Assembly (NCBI GenBank): GCA_003151115.1
Contig: PLWS01000005.1
Span: 248,001-312,000 of the forward strand
Reading direction: 5' to 3'
Length of the DNA stretch: 64,000 nucleotides
DNA from: Vulcanimicrobiota bacterium
Lineage (GTDB): Bacteria; Vulcanimicrobiota; Vulcanimicrobiia; Vulcanimicrobiales; Vulcanimicrobiaceae
Shown here: piece after piece, positions 6,583 through 50,534 of the stretch
Numbering within the stretch: the stretch's first letter is position 1
Layout of the letters: every line of letters starts with the position of its first letter
Position numbers and translations under genes: made by a program
Notes under the pieces: generated by a model
Databases searched by the model: none
What the model was told of the DNA's origin: nothing
What the model saw: the letters and a program-made list of their open reading frames with translations, nothing else

Positions 6583-6635
6583 GTCCTTCGACACGCTGTT
6601 CATCCTTACCGGATGAACGGCGGCTCAGGATGACA
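6583..6635. repeat. Interspersed repeat copy A (GTCCTTCGAC...CTCAGGATGACA)
   Basis: 53 bases bounded by GTCCTTCGAC and CTCAGGATGACA. The middle contains a perfect 8-bp hairpin, GTTCATCC / GGATGAAC with loop TTACC (6598-6618). The same end motifs occur at 39979-40021 and 49054-49106, with shorter relatives at 21697-21717 and 58209-58235. This copy is intergenic, just upstream of thpR. Confidence 0.8.
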
Positions 6636-6675
6636 CACTGCAACTCACCATGACACAAATGCTGCACGCCGCACT

Positions 6676-21059: not shown

Positions 21060-21170
21060 TACCTCCTGCAGCGAACCAAGCGTGGGTTTCGTCGCAGGGA
21101 TACCCAAGGACAAGCAAAGCTAATCGTTTCGGGAGCCGGGTTGCCCCCCCTTCAGTATAAGCGAGGACGG
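21060..21170 (-). promoter_or_regulatory. Possible structured leader (c-di-AMP riboswitch-like)
   Basis: Read on the minus strand, this stretch has CGCTTATACTGAA, GGGGGGGCAACCC, a TTGGGTATCCC block and GAAACCCACGCTTGG, in the order seen in ydaO-type c-di-AMP riboswitches (CGCTTAATCTGAA, GGGGGACCC, GGGGTGAATC, GAAnCCGTCAGCTAAC). CGTCCTC and GAGGTACG could close a basal stem. The match is partial and made by eye. TATACT inside it could instead be the -10 box of the promoter (minus-strand start near 21147). A second possible -10, TATAAA, lies further upstream at about 21222-21227. Confidence 0.3.
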
Positions 21171-21237
21171 GCTTGCTGACGGCTACTTTGCCATCCGGCC
21201 CGCCCCGGGCCCGGTCCCTTCGTTTATAAAGGTAGCG

Positions 21238-21696: not shown

Positions 21697-21717
21697 CCCC
21701 TTCGACTGCGCTCAGGA
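21697..21717. repeat. Short relative of the interspersed repeat (copy E)
   Basis: CCCCTTCGACTGCGCTCAGG resembles the two ends of the longer repeats joined with almost no middle. It lies in the 275-base gap between the thioesterase and the efflux adaptor gene. Confidence 0.5.
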
Positions 21718-39978: not shown

Positions 39979-40021
39979 GTCCTTCGACTGGAGCGCCTAA
40001 CGGCGCCCGCTCAGGATGACA
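39979..40021. repeat. Interspersed repeat copy B
   Basis: 43 bases bounded by GTCCTTCGAC and CTCAGGATGACA with a different middle from copy A: a GCGCC / GGCGC hairpin with loop TAAC. It lies in the 142-base gap between the small hypothetical gene and hpnI. A second small hairpin (TGCGCC TAC GGCGCA) flanks it. Confidence 0.8.
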
Positions 40022-47950: not shown

Positions 47951-48954
47951 GCACGCCGTTCGCGCAAAAAGCCGCCATCGCCAAATACGTTCTCAGTAAG
48001 AAGCTCGCGGGCGTGAAGAAGTACGCGCTGGTGATGGAACTCGAGCCGCTCTACCAGTGTAATCTCGCGTGCGCAGGCTGTGGGAAGATCCAGCATCCAG
48101 CCGAGACGCTGCGCAAGCGCCTGAGCCTGGAGCAATGTTTGACGGCGATCGAAGAGTGCGGCGCGCCGGTGATCTCCATTGCCGGCGGCGAACCGCTGGT
48201 GTACGAGCAGCTGCCGGCACTCGTGAACGAACTGGTGCGGCGCAAGAAAGTCGTCATCGTTTGCACGAACGCGCTGCTGCTCGAGAAGAAGATCGACCAA
48301 TTCAAACCTTCGCCTTACTTTACGTGGATGATTCATTTGGACGGAATGCGCGAACGGCACGATCAAGTCGTTTGCCGCGACGGAACCTTCGATAAAGCCG
48401 TCGCCGCGATCAAAGTGGCGCAGGAAAAGGGTTTCCGCGTCGGCACCAACACGACGTTTTTCGATCCGGACGATGCAGGAGACATTCGCGCCGTGCTCGA
48501 TTATCTCAACGACGAGCTCAAAGTCGACGCGATGCAGATTTCTCCCGGCTATGCCTACGAAAAAGCGCCCGACCAAGAACATTTTCTGGGCGTCGATCGC
48601 ACGCGCGCGATCTTCAAGGAAGCTTTCGCCGGCGGCAAGCGGAAAAAATGGCGCTTGAACCACAGCCCGCTCTATCTGGACTTCCTCGAAGGCAAATTCG
48701 ATATGGAGTGCACGCCGTGGGGCATTCCATCATACTCTATTCTGGGCTGGCAGCGGCCGTGCTATTTGATGTCGGACGCGCCGTACGCGCAAACGTACAA
48801 AGAGTTGATCGAAGAAACGGACTGGTCGCTTTACGGCCGCGGCAAAAATCCGAAGTGCGCGAATTGCATGGCGCATTGCGGTTACGAGCCGACCGCGGTG
48901 GTGAGGACCACCGGTTCGGTCAAGGAGAGCATTCGCGCGGCGCTTGCCCACTGA
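47947..48954 (+). CDS. hpnH: HpnH, radical SAM adenosylhopane synthase
   Basis: 335 residues. HpnH adds a 5'-deoxyadenosyl radical to diploptene to give adenosylhopane, the base of all C35 hopanoids. The radical SAM motif CNLACAGC begins at Cys38 (CxxxCxxC). Further family marks are APVISIAGGEPLVYEQLP near residue 75, WRLNHSPLYLDFLEG near 235 and a cysteine-rich end (KCANCMAHCGYEP), where extra Cys residues may bind a second cluster or be structural. ATGA overlap with shc. Confidence 0.94.
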   Translation: MSTPFAQKAAIAKYVLSKKLAGVKKYALVMELEPLYQCNLACAGCGKIQHPAETLRKRLSLEQCLTAIEECGAPVISIAGGEPLVYEQLPALVNELVRRKKVVIVCTNALLLEKKIDQFKPSPYFTWMIHLDGMRERHDQVVCRDGTFDKAVAAIKVAQEKGFRVGTNTTFFDPDDAGDIRAVLDYLNDELKVDAMQISPGYAYEKAPDQEHFLGVDRTRAIFKEAFAGGKRKKWRLNHSPLYLDFLEGKFDMECTPWGIPSYSILGWQRPCYLMSDAPYAQTYKELIEETDWSLYGRGKNPKCANCMAHCGYEPTAVVRTTGSVKESIRAALAH

Positions 48955-49951
48955 CCGCGTCTTCCTAACCGGTGCGAGCGGATTCGTCGGCTCGCACGTT
49001 TTACGAGAACTCGTGGATGCGGGTTATTCTGTACGCGCACTTGCACGCAGTGCGTCCTTCGACTACCCTTCGACGCACTCAGGGCAGGCTGCTACTCAGG
49101 ATGACAATGACGTAGAGATCGTCGAGGGTGATCTTCTCCGGGTCGGCGATTTCGCGCGTGCGCTGGAGGGCTGCCGGTACCTCATGCATTGCGCCGCGCT
49201 CTACTCGTTCGCGCCGGCCGATCGCCGCGCGCTGCACGACGTCAACGTGCGCGGAACGGCGGGCCTCTTCGAAGCGGCGCGCGTCGCCGGGGTGGAGCGC
49301 GCAGTCCTCACGTCGAGCTCGGCAACGCTCGGAGCTTCGCGGGACGGCCGGCCGCGCACCGAAGACGATTACGCGCAGGACGGCGGCTCCGGTTATCACC
49401 ATTCGAAGATCGCGCAAGAACGTGCGGCATTTGCCGCGCGCGTTCCGGTCGTCGCACTGCTGCCGACGGCGCCGGTTGGCCCGGGCGACGCCAAACCCAC
49501 TCCCACCGGCCGGCTCGTCCTGGAGTTCGCGAAGGGAAAAATTTTCGCGAAACCTCCGCGCGGAGGCATGAATCTGGTGCCTGTCGAGGATGTGGCGCGC
49601 GCGCACGTGACGGCGCTGCAACGCGGCCGAACCGGCGAGCGTTACATTTTAGGTGGCGACAATCTTACGCTGGACGAGGTGTGGACGTTGCTTTCGGCGG
49701 TGACCGGAAAGAAGATGCCGGCTTGGCGCGCGCCTGTTGCTCTCGCGCTCGCGATCGCCTACGCCGATGAAGCGCGCGCGCGCTTAACCGGCACCCGGCC
49801 CTTCGTGCCGGTCGAAGGCGTGCGCATGTCGCGCGAGTTGATGTTTGCCGGCAGCGCCAAAGCCCGGCGCGAGTTAGATTTCCAACCCGGCTCTGTTACG
49901 GGCGCGCTCGAGCGCGCGGTCCGCTGGTATCGCGCGCATGACTACTGCTGA
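48944..49951 (+). CDS. hpnA: HpnA, hopanoid-associated sugar epimerase, with repeat insertion
   Basis: 335-residue NAD-dependent epimerase/dehydratase-type short-chain dehydrogenase. RVFLTGASGFVGSHVLREL at residue 5 is the NAD motif, and the catalytic tail SGYHHSKIAQE near 152 contains the H-H-S-K form of YxxxK with Tyr at GYHHSK. Between RALARSA and VEIVEGD (residues 36-58) the interspersed repeat is read in frame and adds about ten residues to a surface loop. TTG start, 11-base overlap with hpnH and 14 with hpnG. Its exact substrate in other bacteria is not settled. Confidence 0.88.
   Translation: MPTDRVFLTGASGFVGSHVLRELVDAGYSVRALARSASFDYPSTHSGQAATQDDNDVEIVEGDLLRVGDFARALEGCRYLMHCAALYSFAPADRRALHDVNVRGTAGLFEAARVAGVERAVLTSSSATLGASRDGRPRTEDDYAQDGGSGYHHSKIAQERAAFAARVPVVALLPTAPVGPGDAKPTPTGRLVLEFAKGKIFAKPPRGGMNLVPVEDVARAHVTALQRGRTGERYILGGDNLTLDEVWTLLSAVTGKKMPAWRAPVALALAIAYADEARARLTGTRPFVPVEGVRMSRELMFAGSAKARRELDFQPGSVTGALERAVRWYRAHDYC
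49054..49106. repeat. Interspersed repeat copy C, inside hpnA
   Basis: 53 bases from GTCCTTCGAC to CTCAGGATGACA, the same length as copy A. The middle contains a second, nested unit (CCCTTCGACGCACTCAGGG). It is translated in the hpnA frame without a stop. Confidence 0.8.
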
Positions 49952-50534
49952 GCGCATCACCGTCGTCGCCGCCACCGGCCTGGAAGCGCGCGCGGCCAAG
50001 GCGGCGCTCGGAAATCGCGCGCGCGTCGTGCAGTCGGGAATCGCGCTGCGCGGCTTGCGCGACGATCCCGGCCCGATTGCGATCAGCTGCGGTTTAGCCG
50101 GCGGTTTACGCGACGATCTCCCGACGGGAACGGTATTGGTTCCGCGTGAGGTGCGCCGTCCGGACGGAACGATGCTGATTTGCGATCCGGAACTCTTCAC
50201 GTCACTCGTGCGCGCCGCGCGCGCGGCCGGATGCGAACCGGTCGAAGCGCCGCTGCTGACGACGGCGCGGATCGTGCGGGGTCCGGAACGCATGCGCTGG
50301 GCGCAGCAAGGTTATGCCGGCGCCGATATGGAGACGGGACTGCTACAAGCGCCGCGCATTGCATGCGTGCGCGTCATCCTCGATACGCCCGTCCACGAGT
50401 TTTCAGCAGCGTGGGAAAATCCAGCCTTGGTTATTTTCCGGCCGGACGCATGGTTCGATATTCCGTTTCTGGCTCGCGTTGCGCCGCGCTGCGCCGCGCT
50501 TGCCGCGCGCATCGTTGCGGGCGCGCTGCCTTAA
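49938..50534 (+). CDS. hpnG: HpnG, adenosylhopane nucleosidase
   Basis: 198 residues of the nucleoside phosphorylase/MTAN family. HpnG removes adenine from adenosylhopane to give ribosylhopane. Family marks are ITVVAATGLEARAAKAAL at the start, SCGLAGGLRDDLPTGTVLVP near residue 50 and the catalytic-loop block GADMETGLLQ near 128 (Glu for the ribose). Shorter than usual MTAN (about 230) but close to other HpnG. Last gene of the operon, 14-base overlap with hpnA. Confidence 0.88.
   Translation: MTTAERITVVAATGLEARAAKAALGNRARVVQSGIALRGLRDDPGPIAISCGLAGGLRDDLPTGTVLVPREVRRPDGTMLICDPELFTSLVRAARAAGCEPVEAPLLTTARIVRGPERMRWAQQGYAGADMETGLLQAPRIACVRVILDTPVHEFSAAWENPALVIFRPDAWFDIPFLARVAPRCAALAARIVAGALP

Follow-up and report, generated by a model that had tools for sequence, protein, structure and literature searches.

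A short palindromic repeat family carried in frame within hpnA genes of Eremiobacterota

The hpnA gene in a 64,000-nucleotide stretch of an Eremiobacterota genome (hereafter, the window) carries a copy of a dispersed palindromic repeat, here termed family A, which comparison of its sequence confirms as an evidently genuine family member and not a chance resemblance. Very probably, a near-neutral, REP-like repeat was inserted into the loop between strands β2 and β3 of the encoded protein, where a second copy later renewed or invaded it, and has been kept as an in-frame extension. Across the class, the same loop appears to have been filled independently about six times, the exact number being uncertain, with elements in either orientation and, in one case, with an unrelated palindrome. 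The original prediction concerned a single repeat copy in hpnA; the nested second copy, the other conserved genes that carry the family and the apparent filling of the same loop in several lineages go beyond it.

Results

The hpnA gene and its composite insert

The gene hpnA occupies positions 48944-49951 on the + strand, begins with a TTG start codon, overlaps the end of hpnH and encodes 335 amino acids. The product matches the Pfam family Epimerase (PF01370) and scores 314 bits against TIGR03466 (E 9e-94), which is below the curated cut-off of 367.65, and the name thus rests on homology and on the neighbourhood, as the squalene-hopene cyclase gene (shc) and hpnH lie directly 5′ of hpnA. Directly 3′ is an ORF at 49938-50534 that matched no NCBIfam model at E 1e-20. 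Outside the loop the dN/dS is 0.095-0.18, showing that the enzyme is maintained and that hpnA is under strong purifying selection. The features of the gene in the window are as follows.

48944..49951, + strand: hpnA, hopanoid-associated NAD-dependent epimerase/dehydratase family protein (TIGR03466, PF01370, neighbour genes)
49054..49106, + strand: composite repeat insert encoding S38-D54, SFDYPSTHSGQAATQDD (sequence, orthologue alignment, copy counts)
49054..49065, + strand: 5′ arm of the outer copy, GTCCTTCGACTA (consensus ends across about 120 copies; same arm in G005)
49066..49090, + strand: nested inner copy, CCCTTCGACGCACTCAGGGCAGGCT, whose tail is the CAGGCT variant (near-identity to the rluD copy)
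49091..49106, + strand: 3′ arm of the outer copy, GCTACTCAGGATGACA (match to other family copies)

The insert thus reads GTCCTTCGACTA-CCCTTCGACGCACTCAGGGCAGGCT-GCTACTCAGGATGACA and has no stop in the hpnA frame, its conceptual translation giving residues S38 to D54. It had been described as a full-length, 53-base repeat copy read in frame, which holds for the presence of the repeat and for the uninterrupted frame, but the insert is a nested composite in which an outer copy (GTCCTTCGAC...CTCAGGATGACA) has a second, 25-bp copy as its middle. The inner copy carries an alternative tail, CAGGGCAGGCT, and is 96% identical over 26 bp to a copy in the rluD gene of the same genome, designated G000 (G000:C6:73311-73336). 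In two species of the same genus, G002 and G005, the corresponding site in hpnA is taken by a hairpin, and the 5′ outer arm is the same in G005 (L011) and diverged in G002 (L010). The 53 bases of the insert are not a multiple of three; the net gain in the G000 protein is about 12 residues, with a loop of 26 residues versus 14 in G001, a species of the same genus without the insert.

Family A in the genome and in the phylum

Family A is present in many copies in the G000 genome (2.56 Mb, 8 contigs). The core pattern CTTCGAC-N(1-31)-CTCAGG is found 119 times compared to 5 for the reversed pattern, and CTCAGGATGACA with at most one mismatch 122 times compared to 1 for the reversed control; the copies were gathered via pattern searches together with the stretches around the matches. 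A general repeat scan of the window did not have family A among the repeats listed. Besides the one in hpnA, at least two other clear copies are located in the window, along with a short match that may be due to chance.

6584..6635, + strand: family A copy with a long stable hairpin (family match; RNA fold z -5.85 over 6584-6640)
39980..40021, + strand: family A copy (family match)
21698..21716, + strand: short core match (CTTCGACTGCGCTCAGG) without the ATGACA tail, possibly chance (pattern match)

The conserved part of the repeat consists of G[TC]CCTTCGAC, a variable middle and CTCAGGATGACA, with conservation declining at both ends and the tail bases of the consensus end kept in 72-88% of the copies. 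The units are approximately 23-55 bp long, with arms that pair imperfectly around a middle of 3 to more than 30 bases; short-form copies have AAG or AGG as the middle and long-form copies a hairpin whose stem varies, and a second hairpin is often found in the middle. Most copies have four of the six frames open, and as composition-shuffled copies keep their frames open about as often, the open frames need no special explanation.

Among the 149 Eremiobacterota genomes, 74 contain family A, almost all of them in family f1. The G000 copies are strongly one-stranded, with nearly all on the + strand of contigs C4, C7 and C8 and most on the - strand in the first half of C6; a strand bias is likewise seen in G002 (26/88) and G005 (37/10), and many other genomes are without it. 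The bias could follow the direction of replication. At G000:C6:70824-70907, units of the repeat tail (TCGACAAGCTCAGGATGACA) form a short tandem array, which suggests local amplification of half-units, and the hpnA insert in G002 is also lengthened by arrays of tail units. A literature search with sequence strings found no paper on family A, and among the titles listed for Eremiobacterota and repeats none deals with dispersed repeats.

The loop in HpnA and its relatives

The AlphaFold2 model of HpnA, built with an alignment of 34 orthologues, has a mean pLDDT of 92. Residues 44-51, located between the strands at 29-34 and 57-61, have a pLDDT below 50 although the rest of the model is confident, so that the insert is predicted to lie in a disordered loop that joins strands 2 and 3 of the nucleotide-binding fold, as expected from the earlier proposal of an exposed loop. 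In the nearest solved structure, Gox2253 (3wj7, 36% identity), the aligned loop is shorter.

Loop length, taken as the distance between the β2 arginine and the GD motif, was measured for 63 distinct hpnA loops. In most orthologues it is 11-17 residues with a modal value of 13, so the figure of about ten given at the outset was right in that most relatives have a short loop, but somewhat low, while the G000 loop has 26. In genes without a clear element the loop ranges from 11 to 23 residues. The alignment supports an insertion relative to the relatives, as genomes without family A do not have these residues and their loops are mostly short; the same residues were specifically looked for in orthologues from repeat-free genomes and were not found there. 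In the scanned hpnA coding sequences, clear elements are confined to this loop, at 0-4 residues past the β2 arginine, and the reading frame is preserved in every species with a filled loop. Longer loops in L183 (SQLEPTN), L198 and L016 have no clear element and were left out of the count.

Within the genus, the orthologue alignment shows that G000, G002 and G005 share the outer arms and the orientation of the insert and differ in the middles. The hpnA element in G003 is in the opposite orientation, and hpnA in G001 is without one. Elsewhere in the class, family A is found in the hpnA loop of G075, G062 and palsa_1505 (L175) and reversed in G065/L172. The loop in G052 (L021/L152) holds two copies of an unrelated palindrome, GTSGGCTCTTTAGAGCCSAC; there are no family A copies in this genome, and the palindrome recurs at several other places in it but in none of the three other genomes searched. 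In a tree from which the loop was left out, the presence of the insert needs seven changes, of which well-supported branches force at least six, although parsimony counts gains and losses alike and some of the changes are possibly losses. The inserts in G000, G002 and G005 could derive from one ancestral insertion with later turnover, and those in G062 and palsa_1505 from another single insertion.

The filling of the loop goes along with the number of copies in the genome. All seven genomes with a family A insert in hpnA have at least 33 copies, and the insert is missing from all 24 hpnA-bearing genomes that have fewer than 30 copies (Fisher p 0.003, Mann-Whitney p 0.0016), although these values are optimistic as related species are counted as independent. 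The middle of the G002 copy is found at seven other places in G002, and a search of G000 allowing up to three mismatches gave no match. Together with the second element in the G000 copy, this G002 subfamily suggests turnover of the filled loop from the pool of copies in each genome, which may proceed via new insertion or gene conversion.

Copies inside other genes

Of 120 gathered copies subjected to a codon-usage test, ten lie within likely genes, to which the copy in hpnA has to be added; family A is uncommon in coding sequence (about 8% of the gathered copies). One of the ten, in proS (L078), is a chance match, as the residues are native and conserved and the repeat tail is absent. In-frame copies are found inside ligA (at two sites), rluD, ileS, uvrA and dxs. 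The first ligA site, in the loop SFFAY...TQW (L080, G000:C3 ~21170-21203), has three repeat units in G000, namely VMVSLSNHPEQR twice in tandem followed by VILSGRHKAPQSK; the site is different in almost every species of the genus and is empty in others. The second ligA site is common to G000 and G002 only. In rluD, a short element is present in G000, G001, G005 and G006 and lacking in G002, G003 and the outgroups; the G001 gene has a 24-nt insert relative to its empty relatives with no evident target-site duplication of the kind expected for a MITE of a DNA transposon, although the sites have diverged. Sequence derived from the element is found in the ileS loop across most of the genus and is missing in the outgroups, and dxs and uvrA encode approximately 6-7 residues beyond those in solved homologues, exactly at the repeat. 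To judge from a reading of their sequences, from which the names are also taken, nuoG (L115), an S9 peptidase gene (L089) and an aluminium-resistance-like gene (L110:5757-5790) likely carry in-frame copies as well.

Discussion

The most probable origin of the HpnA extension is a process in which copies of family A would arise all over the chromosome through some form of copying, and selection would purge most of those that fall within genes. The survivors would be copies that happened to keep the frame in a loop tolerant of extra residues, and a filled loop would then be rewritten from the current pool of copies, either via new insertion or via ectopic gene conversion. We infer that family A spreads as non-autonomous selfish DNA and that the extra HpnA residues are tolerated rather than useful. 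A Y1 transposase of the RAYT type (PF01797) was found in none of the eight genomes searched (G000 and seven relatives), and the control genomes gave matches. A bolder extension of the model, which we offer only tentatively and regard as somewhat less likely than its negation, is that the loops in HpnA (β2-β3), LigA and IleS are standing landing sites in Eremiobacterota that are repeatedly overwritten by the current repeat subfamily of the lineage in the absence of a RAYT-type transposase.

The residues might instead have been co-opted, such that an addition close to the nucleotide-binding site tunes cofactor or substrate use or the binding of a partner and the filling of the loop is adaptive. 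Residues have been gained at the same place in several lineages, and in the model the loop directly follows the β2 arginine at the predicted dinucleotide-binding edge of the fold. However, no residues are common to the filled loops across orientations and repeat families, and even those of G000, G002 and G005 differ, so that the evidence does not support a role for the added residues. The G001 enzyme, which is without the insert, is still conserved (dN/dS 0.14), and family A is also found in the unrelated loops of the ligA, rluD, ileS, uvrA and dxs products, which renders co-option unlikely. Still less probable is that the element acts as RNA or DNA within the operon, for instance as a terminator, an attenuator or an mRNA-stability hairpin, with its translation being incidental: strong hairpins are found in some other copies, as for REP-like repeats, the one at 6584-6640 being an example, but the hpnA copy folds worse than its shuffles (z +1.74) because the nested copy has taken the place of the hairpin, and all species with a filled loop keep the frame. 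A chance resemblance, a native extension of the loop or an assembly error can hardly be entertained, since despite the natural variation in loop length and the metagenomic origin of the assemblies both arms and the inner copy match family A, related inserts are found at the same place in the separate G002 and G005 assemblies, and about 120 copies stand against 1-5 in the controls.

Family A adds a new lineage to the few known with repeats inside proteins. Protein-coding repeats have so far been worked out mainly in the obligate intracellular Rickettsia and Wolbachia, for which reduced selection is a ready explanation, whereas here the phylum is apparently free-living and the enzymes that carry them are under strong purifying selection. 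With sites that are empty, filled, reversed or refilled among close species, one can measure where proteins tolerate new residues, and the same set of species can be used to follow how REP-like DNA spreads without a recognised transposase.

Several known systems resemble family A in part. Rickettsia palindromic elements (RPE) and Wolbachia palindromic elements (WPE), the classic protein-coding repeats, are short dispersed palindromes which are also found in frame in conserved housekeeping genes, where they are translated and seem to be tolerated (PMC2229807, PMC4224334). The likeness to RPE drawn in the original prediction is borne out for this behaviour, as family A is likewise inserted in frame in conserved genes (hpnA, ligA twice, rluD, ileS, uvrA and dxs) and apparently tolerated there, but does not extend to membership: the RPE families are palindromes of about 105-146 bp (PMC2229807) compared to the far shorter family A unit, the sequences are different, and the hosts are Eremiobacterota, recorded as metagenome-assembled genomes from soil and similar habitats, and not Rickettsia. 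Unlike in RPE and WPE, one protein loop is refilled here by differing copies, orientations and repeat families.

Small palindromic REPs of the GTAG and CGTC super-families are mostly intergenic, with some encoding extra residues, and the intragenic ones in several phyla are found in uvrA and in DNA ligase, tRNA synthetase and pseudouridine synthase genes (Di Nocera et al. 2013, PMC3733652), which are the same types of genes as those hit by family A. In the same study, one gene, recB, is described as having different REPs at roughly the same position in two Xanthomonas species. The CGTC REPs have a CGTC or TGTC tag, a stem of 8-9 bp with complementary AT at its first two positions, a loop of 4-5 bases and a CCA tail, and no dedicated transposase (PMC3733652). 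The reverse complement of the family A end CTCAGGATGACA also starts with TGTC, and family A likewise has no detectable transposase of the Y1 type; in contrast, family A has bulged outer arms, an exchangeable inner hairpin and nested copies in place of a regular 8-9 bp stem, its consensus is devoid of the CCA tail, and Eremiobacterota are not among the phyla listed for CGTC repeats in PMC3733652. With the REP/RAYT systems (REPtrons) family A shares the short, palindromic, non-autonomous and high-copy nature of the repeats, but differs in the lack of both the Y1 transposase in the eight genomes and the GTAG tag in the consensus. Family A is thus a distinct new repeat family doing a known thing, and what sets it apart is how often one loop has been filled independently, in either orientation and with unrelated repeats.
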